A stretch of DNA of 64,000 bases from Caprella mutica. Taxonomy: Eukaryota; Arthropoda; Malacostraca; Amphipoda; Caprellidae. Numbering within the stretch: position 1 is the stretch's first letter; the number at the start of each line of letters is the position of its first letter. The translations under genes and the position numbers were made by a program. Shown in pieces: positions 1 to 64,000 of the stretch. The stretch lies in assembly GCA_947561585.1 (NCBI GenBank), contig CANNZV010001116.1:62001-126000 (forward strand), written 5' to 3'. The notes beneath the pieces were generated by a model. The model did not search any database. It was not told the origin of the DNA and saw only the letters and a program-made list of their open reading frames with translations.

Positions 1-259
1 TGGTGGAAGGGCTTAACAACATCGAGGAGGCAGGAGGAACAAGTGGTAGAGTCTTTACTTCTTGGTGATGGAGACAGAGCTCTGTGTCCAGGCCTTGGAG
101 AAGGAATCAGGAGCTTGAAGGAGCCTCCGGATGGAGCCCCTAGTCTCTCCACATCCCCCCGATCAGCTGATCCACTATCCCTCCGACCTTCTTCGTCACC
201 GGGGGAGTTTCTTCTTTGGCGGATGGGGCCAGTGCGGTGAGGATCCCGCATTGAATGGC
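1..259 (-). CDS. Alternative last exon E (partial) of the single-pass membrane protein gene
   Basis: Read on the minus strand, a splice acceptor (taaattccccag) is followed by GC CAT TCA ATG CGG, giving H-S-M-R-D-P. The frame stays open to base 1 (about 85 codons), so the stop lies outside the window. If joined to the shared exon ending at 5780, the split codon is A|GC (Ser). The peptide is Arg/Ser/Pro-rich with no membrane segment. It contains RQRRNSPGDEE, a basophilic-kinase-type site, and then KLLIPSPRPGHRALSPSPRS. That last stretch aligns with IPSPR..SP.LRS in exon A (983-1179) and LPSPH..SPQPRS in exon B (1914-2095), so the exons are duplicates. GC content is well above the flanking intron, which supports coding. 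The exon could also be internal, since its 3' end is not visible. The function of the tail is unknown. Confidence 0.68.
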
Positions 260-677
260 CTGGGGAATTTATACACTCAGCATTGGGGAGAAATGTTTGT
301 AAGTCTTATGACATTATCTTTATCAAACTTAACCTATGCAATTACAATGCAGGGTAAAACGTGCATGAAGTGATATGGGGATAACACAAATGTTATATGT
401 CCTGTTGAAGTAAAAACAAGTGAAAATCATTAGAATAGAGAATGTATAATACATACACATAGAAATTATTCCTTGTTCCAGATTAAAAAAATCTAATTCG
501 GAATGGTTTTTAGAATATTTTGTAATCAACTTGATGAAAAATTTATAACCTGATTTAGCATCCTATGAAGACTGTCAAAATCCAAGGTAAATAATTTGAA
601 TAATGGATATGAAAAATATCAAAAGTAATTTTAGTTATTCAATAAGAAAAATAATGAAAAACACGCATCAAAACTTG

Positions 678-683
678 TTTATT
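678..683 (-). promoter_or_regulatory. Possible polyadenylation signal for alternative exon A
   Basis: AATAAA on the minus strand about 300 bases downstream of the exon A stop (983). A plausible 3' UTR length, but the hexamer is frequent by chance in AT-rich sequence. Confidence 0.3.
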
Positions 684-982
684 GCAATAACTCCAAAATG
701 TAAAATACAAAAAGAAAAACCACCTAGGTATTCATTTTTCAAATAATCTAAGACATTGTTATTTATGCAGTAGAAACACCAATCCAAAGTTGAGGTGAGA
801 CGTAGAGATTTAGGGTAGAAATTTCGGACGAGACCAACACAGCAGGTGTGATCCGGACAGAAGAATGAGAGTCTAGGTCTAATACAGTGAGAACAGTTAG
901 TCTGGAAGAGAGGGCGGAAAACAGAGATTGAGGGTTGGTTGCTTGGTAGAATCCACCGAAAGAATCTCTTCTACATAGACAG

Positions 983-1179
983 TCAGTTTAGGAGTGGGTT
1001 GTGGTTACTTCTCAGTTGCGGAGAAGCTGATCGATGGTGGTAGGAGTGCGTCCTTGGCGATGGAATGAAATTACGAAGAGAGCCGCCTCTGTCGGTACTG
1101 GCCTGTCCTACTGAGGAAGCAGGACGTCTCATGTCCTCGTTAGTTAGGTAGTCAGGCCTTCCATTTCGCATAGATCGAC
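983..1179 (-). CDS. Alternative last exon A of the membrane protein gene
   Basis: A minus-strand acceptor with a good pyrimidine tract (cacctccgtcgtctacag) precedes GT CGA TCT ATG CGA. The codons read R-S-M-R-N-G-R-P-D-Y and continue for 64 residues to a TGA at 983-985. The entry phase (two bases completing a codon) is the same as in the four sister exons and matches the single A at the end of the exon at 5780-5852. The C-terminal third, NFIPSPRTHSYHHRSASPQL, matches the ends of exons B and E. An AATAAA lies about 300 bases downstream (forward 678-683), consistent with a 3' UTR. No domain is recognised. It looks like a flexible, basic, phosphorylatable cytoplasmic tail. Confidence 0.75.
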
Positions 1180-1913
1180 CTGTAGACGACGGAGGTGATG
1201 TCTCACTCATCGAATTTACCTATTTGGTCTATTGTCTCTAATGCACTGAAATATATCAAACTGAATGTTCATTAGCAATATAGCACAAGTTTCCCTCTTA
1301 TCAATAACACTTAATACTAAAGAGGGATGGTAATTTTTCTCACCTTTTGTTCCTGTTAGTTCATCATAATATAATTCAAAGGGAACACCAAAAGTAATCA
1401 ACTACAGACACATTTTATACCTCAATTAGGGTTCTGAACGAAAAATTTCGTCCTCGATAAATACATGGGTGGGATAACATAAAAACCCTTTTGGATCAGC
1501 AGTAAATTCTACCTTGATGGCCAAAATTCCAACTCACGAATAACTTAACACATGCTAAAGGTAAAATAAGCATAATAAAATTATTACATGGCTGATTTCA
1601 GAGACCTCTGGTTATCTAAACACAGAATAATTCGGATAGGACGGAGTAGACAACGGAAAATGGAGTCCGACAACTGTCGATCAGAAGAAGGTTTACAATA
1701 TTGAGGTAAAAGAAACGCTTTCAAAAGAATCAAGGAACTTCCAAAATACATTCTGGTGAGGTAGAAATCTGGTGGAATCGGTGATGTAGGTAGTTGTAAG
1801 TCGTGAGTAATATGGTAGAAATTTGGTAGAAATGGTTAGAACTAGGTATGAACTAGGAATAGAAGTCGTTTCCGATAGGTAGCACAACATCAGGTAGCAA
1901 GGAGACTAAACAT

Positions 1914-2095
1914 TCAAGGGTATATACTTCTTGGCTGTGGAGACAAAGATCGACGTAGTCTATTATGTTGTGGAGAATGGGGTGACGGTAGAAGTAGATT
2001 CACGCTGGGGGGTTCGTCGACGCTTGTGCCTCCACCCACGCGGGATATCGTGTTGGCAAGCTCCTCCCCTCGGGGCCTTTGTCTCATGGATTGAC
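1914..2095 (-). CDS. Alternative last exon B of the membrane protein gene
   Basis: The acceptor ccgccctaaag is followed on the minus strand by GT CAA TCC ATG AGA, giving Q-S-M-R-Q-R-P-R. The frame runs 59 residues to a TGA at 1914-1916. Its tail, LLLPSPHSPQHNRLRRSLSP followed by QPRS, is clearly related to exons A and E. The first half is divergent (RPRGEELANTISRVGGGTSV). The exon is too short for standard ORF calling and was recognised from the shared G-x-S-M-R entry motif and phase. A GC-rich island in an AT-rich intron supports coding. I found no clear AATAAA between it and exon A, so its polyadenylation site is unresolved. Confidence 0.7.
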
Positions 2096-2949
2096 CTTTA
2101 GGGCGGAAACATACTTTTGTGTTGCAAGAAATACTATCACTAACCTTAAAAAAAGTTGCACTGACAATATTCGTCTAGAAAAGTTATTCCTAAAATTTCA
2201 ATATTTTGCAAAGAATTTCACTGTTATAATATACGAAAAGAACACTGGAAGTAAAAGACATTATGAACATTAGGTAGTGGATCACAATAGTAACGGGTAA
2301 TGGACATAATTTGAAAAGAGGGTTGATAAAATATTGGTTGGAGTATTTCCACGCTGGTTCACTGTTTGGTATACATAGATTGTAATAACGGGTTCTAAAA
2401 ACAATATTAGCAATGGCTAACAACAAGAACAACATCAATGATAATAATAATGATTGAGTGTCAGCATTTGGGTCAACTTGGTATATTTTTTTGTCGATTG
2501 ATGCCCCATCTACTGAAAACAGCAGTTTTGGAATGCACTAGAGAAATAAATGGGGATTTGTGATGATAATAAAGCGGGTGTTCGCCAGGATGATACTCAA
2601 ACGCTGGTACAAAATACTAAACGAGTTACTTCGGTAATCTGTCTCTCAAGTACATTAAGAGGTTAAAGTAAACAGAAATATACAAGCAAGGTTGAGAAGG
2701 GTACACCGACAGCAATGCAAAAGAAAGTGTATCGCTTGGTTCGCTTTAGATCTGTCTTTTAGTTAAAGACCACCAAGAACATCTAAACAATCTCCTCACA
2801 CACTAGATGTATCTGTAATGTATTCCACTTCACCAAAAACCAAAATATTTGTACTGACTCTTGGATAAAAACAAAGAGATAGCAAAAAGATACATCAAGA
2901 GTAGGATCTGTCCTAGGATTAAAAATGGCACATCAACAAAAGTAGTCAG

Positions 2950-3437
2950 TCATGATGCGAGGAGAGAACCAATTACCGAAGCACAAATTTGTTTTGGACA
3001 GGCAAGCAAGGCAGATTCCGAATTTGAAACTCTACTTCTAAACTGTGAGTGGTGTCTCTGGGCCTGCTCCTGAGCCGTCTTGCTTCCCCGAAAACTGGTC
3101 CTCTGGAGCACAGCGTGGTTCTGGTGCAATTGAACCTGATGGAGTTGAGCTTGGGGTTGCTGCTGCAGCGACTGCTGTCGTTGTAGTTGGGGCTGTTGGT
3201 GTTGCACTGAGTTTGAGCGCGTGTAGGTTCTTCTCGGTCTCGGCGAAGCGGCCGGTAAAACCCGGTGACTTCCTCCTCTGGGCGACAGCGAGTTTGAACT
3301 TGTGTTAGGTGGCTCTAATACCGCACTGGCTACCTCTGCCCACCTATTGTACGATCTGGACGGCCTTAGGGCAGCTATAACATCTTCGGCACTAGTGATG
3401 GGCTTTTGATTTCCTTGCGTGAGTCGCATAGACTGAC
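2950..3437 (-). CDS. Alternative last exon C of the membrane protein gene (Gln-rich tail)
   Basis: The acceptor gacgcgtccacag precedes GT CAG TCT ATG CGA on the minus strand, giving Q-S-M-R-L-T-Q. It is the longest tail, about 161 residues, ending at a TGA at 2950-2952. In order it has a motif EDVIAALRPSRSYNRWAE, a Ser/Pro segment (SSNSLSPRGGSHRVLPAASP), a basic RPRRTYTRSNS segment, a Gln-rich stretch of about 35 residues, and a C-terminus with FRSRVSNSESALLA. RTYTRSNS and RTSFRGS are basophilic-kinase-like sites. The Gln-rich part may be low-complexity expansion. The last 15 or so residues could instead be intron if a downstream donor is used. Length and repeat content distinguish it from the other tails, but the entry motif and phase are identical. 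Confidence 0.72.
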
Positions 3438-3715
3438 CTGTGGACGCGTCAACGAGAGAAGAAGAGAAAAGGCTAGTTAAAAAGAGGAGAGGTAGGTCAG
3501 AGACATGTGCATTGAAAATCAACAAAACTTATTCAACTCCTTTAAAAGAGAAAAGAACTTAAAATCTAAGAGCAGTTTGTTCAAAATAGAATACATAATC
3601 AAAAAGTGAAAGAATAACTTATTATAAATTCATAGTTTCAACATAAATGAAGGTACGGATAATGTAAAGAGCTTTGTAGGTTTATTATGCTTGTATCCAA
3701 TTAGGGTGCTCTAGA

Positions 3716-3721
3716 TTTATT
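3716..3721 (-). promoter_or_regulatory. Possible polyadenylation signal for alternative exon D
   Basis: AATAAA on the minus strand about 310 bases past the exon D stop at 4029, with a second copy at 3681-3686. Two signals before the next alternative exon (C) would allow exon D transcripts to end here. Confidence 0.3.
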
Positions 3722-4028
3722 GAACAGTTTCTTTCATCTATTACTAACATACATCCAAAACCTGTTGAAAAAAGACAAAAGTTTATAAAAATTTAAAAAA
3801 ATCCGCAGCTACACCGATTTTAGTGATTCTTCACTACGAATCTGAAAAAAAATAGTACGGGTGACTCTCTGTAAGGTTCATTCAGTTTCTTGTAAAGGGT
3901 GTGATACACTTATAGTAGATGAGGACGATTTTCCTGACGAGTCCACAGTGTGGGGGTGACAATCTGCCAAGACGATGACACAAGTGGGTGGTGGGGGTGA
4001 CACAGAATAGTCTAAATGGTGGTGGGGA

Positions 4029-4333
4029 TCAAGACAGGTGGTTAGTACTTCTAGAATGAGGTGGAGAACCCCGAATTACGTAGCGTCGCTCCCCCTCCAG
4101 GTGGTGGCTGCTGTATTTCCAGCTGTTGGTGCGCTGCCGTTCCCCGTGGTAGCGACTGCTTCCGTAACTTCTCTCTTGACTGGCTATGGCGGCGAGCAAA
4201 GCGTCTTCTGCCGGAAGTACCACGGTGAGACTGCCGGCGCGACTCGCTCTGTGTGCCGCGTTGTACAGCGCGTCCTGGGACAGACGCCGATACACCGGGC
4301 AGCCCTCTGTGCGATTGTGGCGCATGGAGTGGC
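4029..4333 (-). CDS. Alternative last exon D of the membrane protein gene (first in transcription order)
   Basis: The acceptor caccgttctttag precedes GC CAC TCC ATG CGC on the minus strand, giving H-S-M-R-H-N-R-T-E-G. The frame gives about 100 residues to a TGA at 4029-4031. The tail includes CPVYRRLSQDALYNAAHRAS, a hydrophobic patch TVVLPAEDALLAAIAS, then RYHGERQRTNSWKYSSHH and SPPHSRSTNHLS. SPPHSRS recalls the SP..RS endings of the sister exons, and RQRTNS is a likely kinase site. AATAAA motifs lie about 310 bases downstream (forward 3716-3721 and 3681-3686). The hydrophobic patch is too short and too charged to be a membrane helix. It is the exon closest to the shared donor at 5780. Confidence 0.75.
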
Positions 4334-5779: not shown

Positions 5780-5852
5780 TTTTTCTAATTCGCGAAGGAG
5801 CTCCCAGTCGCTTCATGGCATTCAGCCCCGCAGACACAGGCTCTACGTCAGC
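5780..5852 (-). CDS. Shared cytoplasmic exon preceding the alternative tails
   Basis: On the minus strand the acceptor cacctccatttcag is followed by 24 codons, ADVEPVSAGLNAMKRLGAPS then RIRK, plus one base A, before the donor AAAAA|GTGAGA. It enters in phase 0, matching the phase-0 exit of the exon at 6375-6569. It leaves in phase 1 with A, which makes a Ser codon (AGT or AGC) with each of the five downstream exons, giving RIRKS-[RQH]SMR. An inverted-repeat element with an 8-bp target duplication sits immediately upstream of this acceptor (5874-6069), so the intronic bases beyond about -14 are transposon-derived. The segment is short and basic and has no recognisable domain. The phase agreement across six exons is the strongest evidence that the gene is real. 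Confidence 0.75.
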
Positions 5853-6374: not shown

Positions 6375-6569
6375 CTTAGTGCGTCCAGTGGCATGCAGTG
6401 CGTTCTCATCTGGCACCAGACTTGCTTTTCTCACACTGACGGACACAGCATTCTTAACAGTGAGTTCTGTCTCACTCCCCTCCAGACTTCCACCAGTCTC
6501 TTCGGCTTCTCCACCACTCTCCTCCCCAACCATGTCCTCCTCGGTAGGGGACGGGGCGGAACTTCCCTC
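6375..6569 (-). CDS. Shared acidic cytoplasmic exon
   Basis: The minus-strand acceptor ccttttattcgcag leads into 65 codons ending at the donor AAG|GTACTG. The exon is phase 0 at both ends. The peptide starts EGSSAPSPTEEDMVGEESGG, is strongly acidic for about 35 residues, then becomes basic and Ser-rich with VSVSVRKASLVPDENALHAT. RKAS is a PKA/PKC-like site. The composition suggests an unstructured cytoplasmic linker between the membrane and the variable tails. The forward-strand frames over the same bases are shadows: they lack splice logic and would give repetitive Ser/Pro peptides. No family is recognised. Confidence 0.72.
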
Positions 6570-11264: not shown

Positions 11265-11430
11265 CCCTGACAATAGCTGGTCCTTATTGCCCTCAGTCGC
11301 ATGGCTTGATTTTCTGGACCCCGGGGCACTGGAGTCATTAACAGCTCTGCTTTTTATGCTAGTCTGTCCCGTGTCTTCTCTTTTGACTCCTCCTGCTTCG
11401 ACGTCGCGACCCTTCGTCCATATACGTCTA
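11265..11430 (-). CDS. Juxtamembrane cytoplasmic exon
   Basis: On the minus strand the acceptor tcacctcccctttcttcag is followed by one base (T) completing a Ser codon from the preceding exon, then 55 codons to the donor GGG|GTAGGG. It begins RRIWTKGRDVEAGGVKREDT, an Arg/Lys-rich stop-transfer flank directly after the transmembrane segment. It continues with GQTSIKSRAVNDSSAPGSRK and ends QLLSG. The 2-to-0 phase matches both neighbours. The donor is weaker than consensus. Two alternative GT sites a few bases downstream would break the frame to the next exon, so this boundary is preferred. The positive charges indicate this side is cytoplasmic (positive-inside rule). Confidence 0.75.
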
Positions 11431-11900: not shown

Positions 11901-11997
11901 CTGGCTAGGAAGGCTGCAGCCCCAATACATAGCAGGGGTATGAGTGTAGATAATATTATCGCTGTAATCATATACTGTTGGGGTAACATTTCATTTG
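11901..11997 (-). CDS. Transmembrane exon
   Basis: On the minus strand the acceptor ttttttgtttcag opens a 97-nt exon ending CCAG|GTTAGTG. It encodes NEMLPQQYMITAIILSTLIP followed by LLCIGAAAFLA. The stretch from about MITAII to AAAFLA is some 23 hydrophobic residues, the length of a single membrane helix. It is followed by S-RR in the next exon and preceded by acidic residues, giving a type I (N-out) topology. Entry is phase 1 and exit phase 2, matching the donors and acceptors at 13379 and 11430. It is the only convincing transmembrane helix among the exons found, so the product looks single-pass. Confidence 0.78.
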
Positions 11998-13378: not shown

Positions 13379-13456
13379 TGTCATCTTCGTCGTTGCCCCC
13401 TGCATTGGCTATCGTCATATTATCGGGGGGTAAATGTTTGCTCTGGACTCGCTTAA
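13379..13456 (-). CDS. Acidic extracellular exon next to the transmembrane exon
   Basis: The minus-strand frame KRVQSKHLPPDNMTIANAGG followed by NDEDD ends in a strong donor, GACA|GTGAGTTC. The N-M-T sequon fits an extracellular position. It exits in phase 1 with A, making Thr with the transmembrane exon, and enters in phase 1 after gggctcag, making Val with the donor at 15766. The acceptor has a weak pyrimidine tract. The 51-bp tandem array (13471-14190) begins almost directly upstream, and this acceptor lies in what looks like a degenerate terminal repeat unit. The array frames are also open (51 is divisible by three), so a longer exon running into the array cannot be excluded. Confidence 0.6.
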
Positions 13457-13470
13457 CTGAGCCCACATAC

Positions 13471-14190
13471 TTCATGAGGAAGTGATGCAACATGATGTAG
13501 ACCTGAAATGGGACAACATACTTCATGAGGAAGTGATGCAACATGATGTAGACCTGAAATGGGACAACATACTTCATGAGGAAGTGATGCAACATGATGT
13601 AGACCTGAAATGGGACAACATACTTCATGAGGAAGTGATGCAACATGATGTCGACCTGAAATGGGACAACATACTTCATGAGGAAGTGATGCAACATGAT
13701 GTCGACCTGAAATGGGACAACATACTTCATGAGGAAGTGATGCAACATGATGTAAACCTGAAATGGGACAACATACTTCATGAGGAAGTGATGCAACATG
13801 ATGTAAACCTGAAATGGGACAACATACTTCATGAGGAAGTGATGCAACATGATGTCGACCTGAAATGGGACAACATACTACATGAGGAAGTGATGCAACA
13901 TGATGTCGACCTGAAATGGGACAACATACTTCATGAGGAAGTGATGCAACATGATGTAAACCTGAAATGGGACAACATACTTCATGAGGAAGTGATGCAA
14001 CATGATGTAAACCTGAAATGGGACAACATACTTCATGAGGAAGTGATGCAACATGATGTAGACCTGAAATGGGACAACATACTTCATGAGGAAGTGATGC
14101 AACATGATGTCGACCTGAAAAGGGACAACATACTACATGAGGAAGTGATGCAACATGATGTAGACCTGAAATGGGACAACATACTGAGTG
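13471..14190. repeat. 51-bp minisatellite abutting an exon, about 14 copies
   Basis: Unit of 51 bp including cttcatgaggaagtgatgca and acctgaaatgggacaacata. On the minus strand each unit contains tgttgtcccatttcag|gt, a good 3' splice acceptor. The array begins about 15 bases upstream of the acceptor of the exon at 13379-13456. All frames are open because 51 is divisible by three. Variants tagac, tcgac and taaac mark subsets of units. Confidence 0.94.
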
Positions 14191-18560: not shown

Positions 18561-18725
18561 TTCTAAGAGTAGAGACAAAGAGTTTCTACAGAGGCTAAAG
18601 AGACGCTATTGTTCCGTAGACTTTCTCTCCTTTGTCTCAACTATAAAAATGAATAGAGTTCTAAGCACCATTGTACATTGCACCAAAGAACTGCATTGCT
18701 ACTCTATGCACTTTGAATAGAACCA

Positions 18726-21372
18726 CATACGGTAAGAACCACACTACGGTAAGAACCACAGTGCGGTAAGAACCACAGTATGGTAAGAACCACACTACGG
18801 TAAGAACCACACTACGGTAAGAACCACACTACGGTAAGAACCACAGTACGGTAAGAACCACAGTACGGTAAGAACCACAGTGCGGTAAGAACCACAGTAT
18901 GGTAAGAACCACACTACGGCAAGAACCACACTACGGTAAGAACCACAGTGCGGTAAGAACCACAGTATGGTAAGAACCACACTACGGTAAGAACCACACT
19001 ACGGTAAGAACCACACTACGGTAAGAACCACAGTACGGTAAGAACCACAGTACGGTAAGAACCACACTACGGTAAGAACCACAGTGCGGTAAGAACCACA
19101 CTACGGTAAGAACCACACTACGGCAAGAACCACACTACGGTAAGAACCACAGTGCGGTAAGAACCACACTACGGTAAGAACCACACTACGGTAAGAACCA
19201 CACTACGGTAAGAACCACACTACGGTAAGAACCACAGTACGGTAAGAACCACAGTACGGTAAGAACCACACTACGGTAAGAACCACACTACGGTAAGAAC
19301 CACAGTACGGTAAGAACCACACTACGGTAAGAACCACACAACGGTAAGAACCACAGTACAGTATGAACCACAGTACGGTAAGAACCACAGTACGGTAAGA
19401 ACCACACTACGGTAAGAACCACACTACGGTAAGAACCACACTACGGTAAGAACCACACTACGGTAAGAACCACAGTACGGTAAGAACCACACTACGGTAA
19501 GAACCACAGTACGGTAAGAACCACAGTACGGTAAGAACCACAATATGGAGAGAACCACACTACGGTAAGAACCACACCAAGGTAAGAACCACAGTGCGGT
19601 AAGAACCACACTACGGTAAGAACCACAGTGCGGTAAGAACCACACTACGGTAAGAACCACACTACGGTAAGAACCACACTATGGTAAGAACCACACTACG
19701 GTAAGAACCACAGTACGGTAAGAACCACACTACGGTAAGAACCACAGTACGGTAAGAACCACACTACGGTAAGAACCACACTACGGTATGAACCACACTA
19801 CGGTAAGAACCACACTATGGTAAGAACCACACTACGGTAAGAACCACAGTACGGTAAGAACCACACTACGGTAAGAACCACAGTATGGAGAGAACCACAC
19901 TACGGTAAGAACCACACTTCGGTAAGAACCACACTACGGAAAGAACCACACTACGGAAAGAACCACACTACGGAAAGAACCACACTACGGTAAGAACCAC
20001 AGTGCGGTAAGAACCACAGTGCGGTAAGAACCACACTACGGTAAGAACCACACTACGGTAAGAACCACAGTGCGGTAAAAACCACACTACGGTAAGAACC
20101 ACACCACGGTAAGAACCACAGTGCGGTAAGAACCACACTACGGTAAGAACCACACTACGGTAAGAACCACACTATGGTAAGAACCACACTACGGTAAGAA
20201 CCACACTACGGTAAGAACCACACTACGGTAAGAACCACACTACGGTAAGAACCACACTACGGTAAGAACCATACTACGGTAAGAACCACACTACGGTAAG
20301 AGCCACAATACGGTAAGAACCACACTACGGTAAGAACCACACTACGGTAAGAGCCACAATACGGTAAGAACCACACTACGGTAAGAACCACAATACGGTA
20401 AGAACCACACTACGGTAAGAACCACACTATGGTAAGAACCACACTACGGTAAGAACCACAGTACGGTAAGAACCACACTACGGTAAGAACCACAGTATGG
20501 AGAGAACCACACTACGGTAAGAACCACACTTCGGTAAGAACCACACTACGGAAAGAACCACACTACGGAAAGAACCACATTACGGTAAGAACCACACTAC
20601 GGTAAGAACCACAGTGCGGTAAGAACCACAGTGCGGTAAGAACCACACTACGGTAAGAACCACACTACGGTAAGAACCACAGTGCGGTAAAAACCACACT
20701 ACGGTAAGAACCACACCACGGTAAGAACCACAGTGCGGTAAGAACCACAGTGCGGTAAGAACCACACTACGGTAAGAACCACACTACGGTAAGAACCACA
20801 GTACGGTAAGAACCACAGTACGGTAAGAACCACACTACGGTATGAACCACACTACGGTAAGAACCACACTACGGTAAGAACCACACTACGGTAAGAACCA
20901 CACTACGGTAAGAACCACACTACGGTAAGAACCACACTACGGTAAGAACCACACTACGGTAAGAGCCACAATACGGTAAGAACCACACTACGGTAAGAAC
21001 CACACTACGGTAAGAACCACAGTGCGGTAAAAACCACACTACGGTAAGAACCACACCACGGTAAGAACCACAGTGCGGTAAGAACCACAGTGCGGTAAGA
21101 ACCACACTACGGTAAGAACCACACTACGGTAAGAACCACACTATGGTAAGAACCACACTACGGTAAGAACCACACTACGGTAAGAACCACACTACGGTAA
21201 GAACCACACTACGGTAAGAACCACACTACGGTAAGAACCACACTACGGTAAGAGCCACAATACGGTAAGAACCACACTACGGTAAGAACCACACTACGGT
21301 AAGAGCCACAATACGGTAAGAACCACACTACGGTAAGAGCCACAATACGGTAAGAACCACAATAAGGTAAGC
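18726..21372. repeat. 17-bp minisatellite, about 155 copies, with 612-bp higher-order repeat
   Basis: Unit gtaagaaccacactacg (17 bp) with common variants agtgcg, agtacg and ccacg. A distinctive block (cagtatggagagaaccac, then acacttcgg, then acggaaag) occurs at 19881 and again at 20493, exactly 612 bp or 36 units apart, so blocks have been duplicated. Each unit has CG|GTAAGA on the forward strand, a good donor match. Confidence 0.95.
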
Positions 21373-51720: not shown

Positions 51721-53690
51721 TGTACGGCAATAGGGTAACTGTACGGTAATAGAGTAATTGTACGGCAATAGAGTAATTGTACGGTAATAGGGTAACTGTA
51801 CGGCAATAGGGTAACTGTACGGTAATAGGATAACTGTACGGAAATAGAGTAATTGTACGGCAATAGAGTAATTGTACGGTAATAGGGTAACTGTACGGCA
51901 ATAGGGTAACTGTACGGTAATAGGGTAACTGTACGGTAATAGAGTAACTGCACGGCAATAGGGTAACTGTACGGCAATAGGGTAACTGTACGGCAATAGG
52001 GTAACTGTACGGCAATAGGGTAACTGTACGGCAATAGAGTAACTGTACGGCAATAGAGTAACTGTACGGCAATAGGGTAACTGCACGGCAATAGGGTAAC
52101 TGCACGGCAATAGAGTAACTGTACGGCAATAGGGTAACTGCACGGCAATAGAGTAACTGAACGGCAATAGGGTAACTGTACGGTAATAGAGTAACTGTAC
52201 GGCAATAGGGTAACTCTTCGGTAATAGAGTAACTGTACGGCAATAGGGTAACTCTTCGGTAATAGAGTAACTGTACGGCAATAGGGTAACTCTTCGGTAA
52301 TAGAGTAACTGTACGGCAATAGGGTAACTCTTCGGTAATAGAGTAACTGTACGGCAATAGGGTAACTCTTCGGTAATAGAGTAACTGTACGGCAATAGAG
52401 TAACTGTACGGTAATAGAGTAACTGTACGGCAATAGGGTAACTCTTCGGTAATAGAGTAACTGTACGGCAATAGGGTAACTCTTCGGTAATAGAGTAACT
52501 GTACGGCAATAGGGTAACTCTTCGGTAATAGAGTAACTGTACGGCAATAGGGTAACTCTTCGGTAATAGAGTAACTGTACGGCAATAGGGTAACTCTTCG
52601 GTAATAGAGTAACTGTACGGCAATAGAGTAACTGTACGGTAATAGAGTAACTGTACGGCAATAGGGTAACTCTTCGGTAATAGAGTAACTGTACGGCAAT
52701 AGGGTAACTCTTCGGTAATAGAGTAACTGTACGGCAATAGGGTAACTCTTCGGTAATAGAGTAACTGTACGGCAATAGAGTAACTGTGCAATAGAGTAAC
52801 TGTACAGCAATAGGGTAACTGTACGGTAATAGGGTAACTGTACGGCAATAGAGTAACTGTACGGCAATAGAGTAACTGTACGGCAATAGGGTAACTGTAC
52901 GGCAATATGGTAACTGTACGGTAATAGAGTAACTGTACGGTAATAGAGTAACTGTACGGCAATAGGGTAACTCTTCGGTAATAGAGTAACTGTACGGTAA
53001 TAGAGTAACTGTACGGCAATAGAGTAACTGTGCAATAGAGTAACTGTACGGCAATAGAGTAACTGTACAGCAATAGGGTAACTGTACGGTAATAGGGTAA
53101 CTGTACGGTAATAGGGTAACTGGTAATAGGGTAACTGTACGGTAATAGAGTAACTGTACGGTAATAGGGTAACTGTACGGCAATAGGGTAACTGTACGGC
53201 AATAGGGTAACTGTACGGCAATAGGGTAACTGTACGGTATTAGAGTAACTGTACGGTATTAGAGTAACTGTACGGCAATAGGGTAACTGTACGGCAATAG
53301 GGTAACTGTACGGCAATATGGTAACTGTACGGTAATAGAGTAACTGTACGGCAATAGGGTAACTCTTCGGTAATAGAGTAACTGTACGGCAATAGGGTAA
53401 CTCTTCGGTAATAGAGTAACTGTACGGCAATAGAGTAACTGTGCAATAGAGTAACTGTACGGCAATAGGGTAACTGTACGGTAATAGGGTAACTGTACGG
53501 TAATAGGGTAACTGGTAATAGGGTAACTGTACGGTAATAGAGTAACTGTACGGTAATAGAGTAACTGTACGGTAATAGAGTAACTGTACGGTAATAGAGT
53601 AACTGTACGGTAATAGAGTAACTGGTAATAGGGTAACTGTACGGTAATGTGTACCTGCACGGTAATGTGTACCTGCACGGTAATGTGTAC
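51721..53690. repeat. 19-bp minisatellite, about 103 copies
   Basis: Unit gtacggcaatagggtaact. Between 52190 and 52770 it alternates with a ctcttcgg variant as a 38-bp dimer, itself repeated in larger blocks. The long minus-strand Tyr/Thr/Leu/Pro frames (up to about 700 codons) exist because no frame of the 57-bp triple unit has a stop. Confidence 0.95.
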
Positions 53691-58149: not shown

Positions 58150-59290
58150 CACTTTGTGGTCTTTTTTTCCAATTCTCTGTATAAGTTTATATATTTGGAC
58201 TTGGAGACAGCGGGTAGAAAAAAAAATAAACATTTACACTTAATTCAGCTTTCGATTTTATAAAATAGAGTTAAGGGAAAACTAAGTTCTTTGGTTCTTT
58301 ATTTTAGATTTTTTTTTTTAATTCATATTTTAGTTGTGTTTCTTTTCCCTAATTTAATTTTCTTAAATTCATTTAATAATGAAGAGTAGGTACGGAAAAC
58401 TATTTAAACTTATCCATCTTACAACTCTTCCAAAATAAAGTTATCGGGAAACCAAAATTCTTTCATTCTTTAGTTTAGATTTTTATTTTATTTGGCGTTT
58501 TTTTCTCTTTATTTCAGTTGGACCGCACCAATTATCAAGGTTAAAAATATTTAACATGATATTAAGAAAAAATTCTGATTTCAATTGTTTCAATGATTTT
58601 TTGTTTTAGCTAACAATGAATCATTTAAAATTGATATTGCTTTCCTTTTTCAGAAATTGGCTTTACTATTTCAAACTTTATAACAATAAGAGCATTTTTC
58701 AATAAAATAGAGAAATAAAAATGTAGTAAATAATTTTCCTAGACGAATAATTTCGACATGACACATTTAATCTATTTTTGATAAGGACACAAGTCTAACT
58801 TTAATTATTGATTTGAACTAAATAGTTTATCAAGTATAACTGTATTTTAGAAAGGTTTCTATATTGTATATAAATAAGTAAAAAGAAGAAATAAATGAAA
58901 CACGTTTGGTTAGCATATTCAATGGAGGAAAAACATTTCTAAATAATGAATAGAAATTCTCTACGAAAATACTCTATACCTTCAGAGTAATAAAAGCTGA
59001 GATGCTCATTAAAAATCTTTGAAAGTTTTTAATGAAGTTAATGTCTTTGTTTGCCCCAGAATTCTTTTTACAACTCAATATTACTATAAAAACTTCTCAT
59101 TCATGACAGCACGAACTTATTCAAAGGAATGAAGGCAAAGAAATCTTAATTCATTGCAGGGAAAAATGAATGGGAACATTCTGTGAAAAGAAAGTGAATG
59201 AAATTATTTACACTTTCACTCGGAAAATAATGATGATTATTAGACAAAACCTTTCTCCACTTTTCCTCTCTTTTCACCACTCCTATCATT
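58150..59290. other. AT-rich sequence, nothing recognised
   Basis: Over 1 kb without array, inverted repeat or credible exon. Only low-complexity AT-rich tracts are seen. Confidence 0.5.
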
Positions 59291-60680: not shown

Positions 60681-60971
60681 ATGGTCCCAATGTTCGTCAT
60701 ATGGCATATCATTTCCATACGATATGGTCCCAATGCCATATGGCATTCAAAGGAGGAATGCCAACAGACATTAGATTCTCATTTGAAGTTAAGCTCAAAA
60801 AGGCCAAACTTTGAAATTCAATCAGAGACTCAGACAGACGAAAGCTTCTACGATGATGACAATCCAGAGTTTCTCAGACCTCGTCACTCGACATATATCT
60901 GCATAATAGCACTGGCAGTAGGGAATGTACAGGCATTTCTACCTACAGGGACTACAGGCATCTACCTATAG
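60681..60971 (+). CDS. Unassigned forward open frame with acidic segment
   Basis: The forward frame from an ATG at 60681 contains CQQTLDSHLKLSSKRPNFEI followed by QSETQTDESFYDDDNPEFLR, a protein-like acidic stretch not derived from tandem repeats. The first 20 codons overlap short direct repeats of a palindrome (ccatacgatatgg) and the last 15 run into the 23-bp array, so only about 60740-60915 is likely to be coding, if any. A TATA-like box lies 200 bases upstream. No family is recognised. Confidence 0.2.
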   Translation: MVPMFVIWHIISIRYGPNAIWHSKEECQQTLDSHLKLSSKRPNFEIQSETQTDESFYDDDNPEFLRPRHSTYICIIALAVGNVQAFLPTGTTGIYL

Positions 60972-60994
60972 TGATTCCATGACTCTACCTACAG

Positions 60995-63900
60995 TAATTT
61001 AAGTCCTCTCTACCTACAGTGATTCCATGACTCTACCTACAGTGATTCCAGGCCTCTACCTATAGTGATTTCATGACTCTACCTACAGGGACTACAGGCA
61101 TCTCTAGCTATATACGGTGATTCCAGGCCTCTACTTACAGTTATTCCATGACTCTACTTACAGTAAGTCAAGTCCTCTTTACCTACAGTGATTTTATGAC
61201 TCTACCTACAGTTAGTTAAGTCCTCTCTACCTACAGTGATTCCATGACTCTACGTACAGTGATTCCATGACTCTACCTACAGTGATTCCATGACTCTACC
61301 TACAGTGATTCCATGACTCTACCTACAGTGATTCCATGCCTATACCTACAGTGATTCCATGCCTATACCTACAGTGATTCCATGCCTTTACCTACAGTGA
61401 TTCCAGGCCTCTACCTACAGTGATTCCAGGCCTCTACCTACAGTGATTCCAGGCCTCTACCTACAGTGATTCCAGGCCTCTACCTACAGTGATTCCAGGC
61501 CTCTACCTACAGTGATTCCAGGCCTCTACCTACAGTGATTCCAGGCCTCTACCTACAGTGATTCCAGGCCTCTACCTACAGTGATTCCAGGCCTCTACCT
61601 ACAGTGATTCCAGGCCTCTACCTACAGTGATTCCAGGCCTCTACCTACAGTGATTCCAGGCCTCTACCTACAGTGATTCCAGGCCTCTACCTACAGTGAT
61701 TCCAGGCCTCTACCTACAGTGATTCCAGGCCTCTACCTACAGTGATTCCAGGCCTCTACCTACAGTGATTCCAGGCCTCTACCTACAGTGATTCCAGGCC
61801 TCTACCTACAGTGATTCCATGACTCTACCTACAGTGATTCCATGACTCTACCTACAGTGATTCCATGACTCTACCTACAGTGATTCCATGACTCTACCTA
61901 CAGTGATTCCATGACTCTATCTACAGTGATTCCATGACTCTATCTACAGTGATTCCATGACTCTATCTACAGTGATTCCATGACTCTATCTACAGTGATT
62001 CCATGACTCTATCTACAGTGATTCCATGACTCTATCTACAGTGATTCCATGACTCTATCTACAGTGATTCCATGACTCTATCTACAGTGATTCCATGACT
62101 CTATCTACAGTGATTCCATGACTCTATCTACAGTGATTCCATGACTCTATCTACAGTGATTCCATGACTCTATCTACAGTGATTCCATGACTCTATCTAC
62201 AGTGATTCCATGACTCTATCTACAGTGATTCCATGACTCTATCTACAGTGATTCCATGACTCTATCTACAGTGATTCCATGACTCTATCTACAGTGATTC
62301 CATGACTCTATCTACAGTGATTCCATGACTCTATCTACAGTGATTCCATGACTCTATCTACAGTGATTCCATGACTCTATCTACAGTGATTCCATGACTC
62401 TATCTACAGTGATTCCATGACTCTATCTACAGTGATTCCATGACTCTATCTACAGTGATTCCATGACTCTATCTACAGTGATTCCATGACTCTATCTACA
62501 GTGATTCCATGACTCTATCTACAGTGATTCCATGACTCTATCTACAGTGATTCCATGACTCTATCTACAGTGATTCCATGACTCTATCTACAGTGATTCC
62601 ATGACTCTATCTACAGTGATTCCATGACTCTATCTACAGTGATTCCATGACTCTATCTACAGTGATTCCATGACTCTATCTACAGTGATTCCATGACTCT
62701 ATCTACAGTGATTCCATGACTCTATCTACAGTGATTCCATGACTCTATCTACAGTGATTCCATGACTCTATCTACAGTGATTCCAGGCCTCTACCTACAG
62801 TGATTCCATGATTCTATCTACAGTGATTCCATGATTCTATCTACAGTGATTCCATGACTCTATCTACAGTGATTCCATGACTCTATCTACAGTGATTCCA
62901 TGACTCTATCTACAGTGATTCCATGACTCTATCTATAGTGATTCCAGGCCTCTACCTACGGTGATTCCCGGCCTCTACCTACGGTGATTCCAGACCTCTA
63001 CCTACGGTGATTCCAGACCTCTACCTACGGTGATTCCAGACCTCTACCTACGGTGATTCCAGACCTCTACCTACAGTGATTCCAGGCCTCTACCTACAGT
63101 GATTCCATGCCTATACCTACAGTGATTCCATGCCTATACCTACAGTGATTCCATGCCTTTACCTACAGTGATTCCAGGCCTCTACCTACAGTGATTCCAG
63201 GCCTCTACCTACAGTGATTCCAGGCCTCTACCTACAGTGATTCCAGGCCTCTACCTACAGTGATTCCAGGCCTCTACCTACAGTGATTCCAGGCCTCTAC
63301 CTACAGTGATTCCAGGCCTCTAACTACAGTGATTCCAGGCCTCTACCTACAGTGATTCCAGGCCTCTACCTACAGTGATTCCAGGCCTCTACCTACAGTG
63401 ATTCCAGGCCTCTACCTACAGTGATTCCATGACTCTACCTACAGTGATTCCATGACTCTACCTACAGTGATTCCATGACTCTATCTACAGTGATTCCATG
63501 ACTCTATCTACAGTGATTCCATGACTCTATCTACAGTGATTCCATGACTCTATCTACAGTGATTCCATGACTCTATCTACAGTGATTCCATGACTCTATC
63601 TACAGTGATTCCATGACTCTATCTACAGTGATTCCATGACTCTATCTACAGTGATTCCATGACTCTATCTACAGTGATTCCATGACTCTATCTACAGTGA
63701 TTCCATGACTCTATCTACAGTGATTCCATGACTCTATCTACAGTGATTCCATGACTCTATCTACAGTGATTCCATGACTCTATCTACAGTGATTCCATGA
63801 CTCTATCTACAGTGATTCCATGACTCTATCTACAGTGATTCCATGACTCTATCTACAGTGATTCCATGACTCTATCTACAGTGATTCCATGACTCTATCT

Positions 63901-64000
63901 ACAGTGATTCCATGACTCTATCTACAGTGATTCCATGACTCTATCTACAGTGATTCCATGACTCTATCTACAGTGATTCCATGACTCTATCTACAGTGAT
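60995..64000. repeat. 23-bp minisatellite running off the window, about 130 copies
   Basis: Unit of 23 bp (ctctacctacagtgattcca plus ggc or tga). Subfamilies (aggcc, atgac, tatct) occur in long homogeneous blocks. The diagnostic attccatgcctatacc block occurs at 61331 and again at 63102, exactly 1771 bp or 77 units apart, showing a large internal duplication. Confidence 0.96.

Follow-up and report, generated by a model that had tools for sequence, protein, structure and literature searches.

The stretch of Caprella mutica DNA analysed here (assembly GCA_947561585.1, contig CANNZV010001116.1), referred to as the window, is 64,000 nucleotides long and covers bases 62001 to 126000 of its contig, which comprises 272,347 bases and belongs to a 903-Mb genome; contig coordinates equal window coordinates plus 62000. 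Its minus strand carries a gene that was modelled with 14 exons, the last of which lie beyond base 1 of the window (Table 1). Five shared exons are followed by an array of exons (6–12) that each open with codons for a Ser-Met-Arg (SMR) motif. This array very likely represents internal exons of one gene, duplicated in tandem and joined serially into the tail of a single membrane protein. Joining of exons 1–5 according to splice sites and reading frame gave a single frame, and splicing of all 14 exons in series gave a single open frame of 1078 codons with AG/GT at the borders, the stop lying 6.3 kb past the window.

Table 1. Exons of the modelled gene. Positions are window coordinates unless marked as contig coordinates, which lie beyond base 1 of the window; nt, nucleotides; a slash in a donor sequence marks the exon border.
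Exon	Position	Strand	Feature	Length, phase, splice sites and basis
1	13379..13502	minus	juxtamembrane, acidic, ends ...GGNDEDD	frame continuous with exon 2; CAG acceptor, GTGAGT donor; start uncertain
2	11901..11997	minus	predicted transmembrane segment MITAIILSTLIPLLCIGAAAFLA, then basic SRRIW	hydropathy peak and splice sites
3	11265..11430	minus	shared cytoplasmic part (predicted)	
4	6375..6569	minus	shared cytoplasmic part (predicted)	
5	5780..5852	minus	shared exon	leaves single A (phase 1)
6	4049..4333	minus	first SMR exon	285 nt; phase 1-1; donor AGAA/GTACTA
7	3036..3437	minus	SMR exon	402 nt; phase 1-1; donor AGAA/GTAGAG
8	1928..2095	minus	SMR exon	168 nt; phase 1-1; donor AGAA/GTATAT
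9	1009..1179	minus	SMR exon	171 nt; phase 1-1; donor AGAA/GTAACC
10	59..259	minus	SMR exon	201 nt; phase 1-1; donor AGAA/GTAAAG
11	contig 61550-61350	minus	SMR exon	201 nt; phase 1-1
12	contig 59010-58367	minus	SMR exon	644 nt; phase 1 to 0; donor ATCAG/GTAAGC
13	contig 56357-56125			acceptor chosen for fitting phase
14	contig 55982-55706		holds stop	

A sequence-only reading of the window had described the SMR exons as alternative last exons. The five minus-strand acceptors from which it started (4333, 3437, 2095, 1179 and 259) are present, each with a preceding AG and a G(T/C) start, and after the single A left by the shared exon at 5780 all five are read in one phase as S-[R/Q/H]-S-M-R. Four of the frames run to the in-frame stops it had named at 4029, 2950, 1914 and 983, and the fifth is open past base 1; its stop would fall at contig 61892, 109 bases beyond. 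The further copies anticipated there were found by scanning 164 kb, one at contig 61550 and one at 59010 (window −450 and −2990), which brings the total to seven. The pattern AG/G[CT]NNN-TCN-ATG-Arg has 7 matches in the whole contig, all on the minus strand and all within the cluster, as compared with a mean of 0.15 over both strands in 40 versions of the contig generated by a first-order Markov model. Alignment of the units (exons 6–11 whole and the first 54 residues of exon 12) indicated homologous copies, with the S-x-S-M-R start in 7/7 units and a protein identity of 26–41% to the first unit. PSPR- or SPxPR-like unit ends are clear in exons 8–12 only, unlike exons 6 and 7.

The heptanucleotide AGAAGTA occurs once per exon in 6/6 of exons 6–11, with its GT always in phase 1, as compared with 0.12 expected at the contig rate. 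Column identity is 1.00 across these seven bases and 0.13–0.40 in the flanking columns shown (two before and 17 after). Arg is encoded by AGA and Ser by AGT in 6/6 cases each, for which the joint chance is ~2e-8, a rough value based on the gene's own codon use. In the S-M-R codons of exons 6–12 the synonymous sites have drifted (column identity 0.24, 0.52, and 0.24) and the peptide is invariant. Thus, the start of the array exons is conserved as protein and their end as nucleotides, which is the pattern that a splice donor predicts. AGAA/GTA reads as a 5' splice site, by which each of exons 6–11 would run from phase 1 to phase 1; the seventh SMR exon (exon 12, contig 59010) has ATCAG/GTAAGC in phase 0 instead. 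The 'SP..RS' end noticed in the sequence-only reading is indeed shared, and at the DNA level it corresponds to AGAA/GTA (exons 6–11). What had been regarded as divergent C-termini, however, is the sequence downstream of this conserved block. Because AGAA/GTA is read as a donor ahead of them, the exons' own stops would be reached by read-through into the introns.

With a coding score whose training set contained no array exon, exons 6–11 pooled gave 0.356 per codon before AGAA/GTA (476 codons) and −0.021 after it (106 codons), a drop matched in size by 27 of 20000 permutations. Past the site, the read-through stop is reached after 17.7 codons on average, close to the 13.9 expected for non-coding DNA. 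The guanine plus cytosine fraction is 0.53–0.61 within exons 6–12 and 0.22–0.49 over the 150 bases following each. From the read-through stop to the next acceptor, all seven gaps together contain 13 AATAAA (12.8 expected) and nine ATTAAA (10.9 expected) hexamers; a polyadenylation signal is present after exons 6, 9, 11, and 12, and neither hexamer occurs before the next acceptor after exons 7, 8, and 10. Given the donor block, the lost coding signal, the chance-level polyadenylation signals and the 14-exon frame, exons 6–12 are very unlikely to be alternative last exons. Hence, the duplicated same-phase exons behind a shared exon ending in a single A stand as first described, but their status as last exons does not.

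Several observations weigh against the serial joining of internal exons. Exons 6–11 all have A at donor position −1, and five of the six lack G at +5. By a simple score the array donors are the weak ones (−0.1, −0.1, 0.2, 0.5, 0.5, and 1.5, as compared with 0.6–2.2 for seven other donors), and two acceptors also score low, those of exon 8 (0.32) and exon 12 (0.45). The donors of exons 6 and 9 are followed by codons, only 5 and 7 in number, that score as coding (0.85 and 0.63), and three of the read-through stops have AATAAA within ~310 bases behind them (~300 for exons 6 and 9, ~60 for exon 11). At the 3' end of the model, the acceptor of exon 13 was picked on phase fit, and an alternative frame of exon 14 has a higher coding score (25.9) yet contains three stops; in the frames chosen, exon 13 (29.3) and exon 14 (15.2) both score positively. 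At the 5' end, no convincing exon turned up upstream of 13502 among the matches listed for contig 75.5k–216k (codon model and splice scores), so that the gene model is without a start. The top candidate in that region, at contig 197.5k, was rejected as it overlaps a MARVEL-domain exon on the opposite strand.

The architecture of alternative last exons, with 5780 joined to one SMR exon per transcript that has its own stop and polyadenylation site, would account for the fact that every frame reaches a stop, for AATAAA located ~300 (exons 6 and 9) or ~60 bases (exon 11) past the stops, and for the few coding-like codons that follow the site in exons 6 and 9. It also has a precedent in the tandem terminal exons of Drosophila pip and PGRP-LC, as given in PMC9013439. 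It is nevertheless highly improbable, since a phase-1 AGAA/GTA precedes the stop in 6/6 of exons 6–11, exon 12 has ATCAG/GTAAGC, the pooled coding signal is lost behind the block, polyadenylation signals are no more frequent than chance predicts and do not follow three of the exons, and the 14 exons share a continuous frame. Occasional use of one of the SMR exons as a last exon is possible. Dscam-like mutually exclusive internal exons, a single SMR exon being picked and spliced to either exon 12 or exon 13, would be hard to reconcile with the wide spread of lengths (168–402 nucleotides) and with units just 26–41% identical to the first. Moreover, joint inclusion is not barred by the frame, because all six lengths of exons 6–11 are multiples of three, and no 7-base word is common to at least four of the seven upstream or six downstream intron flanks, in which a shared selector sequence was sought at short range; two T-rich 8-base words are common to three upstream flanks. 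Such a choice of exons thus appears very unlikely.

Composite use overlaps with the favoured serial joining. Serial splicing would be the default, and a weak donor would sometimes be ignored, the transcript then ending there with a short tail. The weak donors of exons 6–10 and the AATAAA hexamers found at most ~310 bases past the stops reached by read-through from exons 6, 9, and 11 are consistent with this, but polyadenylation signals occur at chance frequency, and composite use is considered unlikely. Variation of the tail by exon skipping fits serial joining itself. Exons 6–11 have equal phase at both ends, all 64 of their 64 skip combinations stay open to the final stop, and these give 40 distinct lengths; leaving out exon 12 does not keep the frame. 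Since every skip of exons 6–11 keeps the frame, the tail could vary in length, and a variable tail through exon skipping is possible.

In the preferred reading, by which the array exons are internal and joined serially, exon 5 leaves an A and exons 6–12 each open with G[TC]-x-Ser-Met-Arg, exons 6–11 closing with AGA-A/ ahead of GTA and hence being symmetric. The spliceosome would join the array exons one after another, presumably using these donors in the cell, and translation would end at the stop of exon 14, with the stops noted earlier lying in introns. The weak donors and the frame-keeping skips suggest that some array exons may be skipped. As the exon end AGA-A/ combines with G[TC]-x-Ser-Met-Arg of the next exon, the motif spans each joint: the modelled protein shows [R/K]-S-x-S-M-R at seven joints (residues 218, 313, 447, 503, 560, 627, and 694), with R-S-x-S-M-R at all but the first, which has K-S-x-S-M-R. 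All 28 forward joints, from exons 5–11 to later array exons 6–12, restore the motif.

The proposed position of the array behind a transmembrane segment was upheld: upstream of it, exon 2 carries the segment MITAIILSTLIPLLCIGAAAFLA, the only strongly hydrophobic stretch in the model, with a hydropathy peak of 2.42 across 19 residues, as compared with 1.49 elsewhere. Acidic residues precede and basic residues follow this segment, which suggests that the array encodes a cytoplasmic tail. The tail of ~1000 residues contains 17% Ser, 11% Arg, and 10% Pro, and its repeat unit comprises S-x-S-M-R, a variable stretch and then PSPR- and SPxPR-like ends. R-x-x-S, the consensus of basophilic kinases, occurs 37 times and SP 29 times in the tail, which exceeds every one of 500 tail shuffles (maxima 31 and 27, respectively). 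The tail may serve as a disordered scaffold, in which the repeated [R/K]-S-x-S-M-R and SP sites would be phosphorylated and exon inclusion would set their number. Because all 28 forward joints rebuild the motif, inclusion could set from one to seven sites. Speculatively, and with considerable doubt, such a splice-set counter, operating by inclusion of the weak-donor exons, might tune multivalent binding of a kinase or a 14-3-3-like partner under a membrane receptor.

No homologous protein was found up to E 0.001 with a query that included a few intron residues at the exon 2–3 joint, nor up to E 10 with further queries, in a collection that may hold few animals. In Pfam there was no match over the cut-off, and one joined query gave only PAT1 at E 0.56; exons 1–3, the part compared with NCBIfam, gave no match. 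The first 229 residues, compared with PDB sequences, returned three ghrelin-receptor rows at E 1.5–2.5, which were taken as chance. A sarcoglycan identity was rejected, as PF05510 (Sarcoglycan_2), at E values of up to 10, had two matches, both on other contigs and neither at this locus. One weak, below-cut-off Sarcoglycan_2 match, on contig C4461 at 48130 (G000, locus L030), is surrounded by an open frame of 4035 residues. Paralogue searches within the same genome, which score the best candidates only, returned this locus alone for the shared exons with exon 6 and for exons 13–14, and for exons 8–12 (the array exons searched besides exon 6) this locus plus one match at E 4.6 that holds two stops. 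In the literature, no description of this exon array was recognised among the matches listed, as judged by titles and the beginnings of abstracts.

A 51-base-pair (bp; 17-codon) minisatellite of 14 copies at window 13465–14185 abuts exon 1, and its unit includes the CATTTCAG/GTC acceptor and the opening codons of exon 1. The start of exon 1 is uncertain because it lies at the edge of this minisatellite, which may have grown out of the exon 1 start, since the unit holds the acceptor and first codons. Tandem Repeats Finder reported 61 rows in the window, overlapping rows describing the same arrays; long arrays lie at 18719–21371 (17 bp), 51721–53684 (19 bp), and 60938–64000 (23 bp). Elsewhere on the contig, a TTC21-type exon (ARM_TT21_2nd, E 5e-30) from 39378 onward on the plus strand is apparently convergent with the array gene. 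The MARVEL-domain exon at ~197.2 kb on the plus strand resembles synaptophysin, and CRAL/TRIO and tyrosine-phosphatase exons near each other at ~216–220 kb on the minus strand resemble PTPN9.

Arrays of many small in-frame exons with exon-scale repeats, the length of which is tuned by skipping, are found in titin (PEVK) and elastin-type genes. The SMR exons are like these in forming an array of symmetric exons, but those proteins are not membrane proteins. The variable exons of CD44 reportedly keep the frame. According to PMC10722200, variant exons v2–v10 of this single-pass membrane protein gene are included or omitted to give longer or shorter isoforms, and they encode a membrane-proximal part of the ectodomain. 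The likeness lies in consecutive exons, within the gene of a single-pass membrane protein, whose inclusion or omission would change isoform length. Unlike CD44, in which the array is in the ectodomain and its alternative use has been shown, the SMR array would lie in the cytoplasmic tail, would rebuild one motif at each joint and is a candidate for alternative use. Drosophila pip and the 3' variable regions of PGRP-LC, as described in PMC9013439, have tandem arrays of mutually exclusive terminal exons and resemble the present locus in that a cluster of exons has been duplicated in tandem towards the 3' end of a single gene; in contrast to those exons, the SMR exons carry predicted donors and are followed by a later stop exon.

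The case illustrates that a conserved exon end, when read without its splice site, can pass for a conserved C-terminus. If the SMR exons are internal, one long modular tail would replace seven exclusive tails, with up to 64 combinations and 40 lengths. With a motif lying across the joint and restored whichever exons are chosen, splicing would have a neat way to set the number of phosphorylation-like sites.
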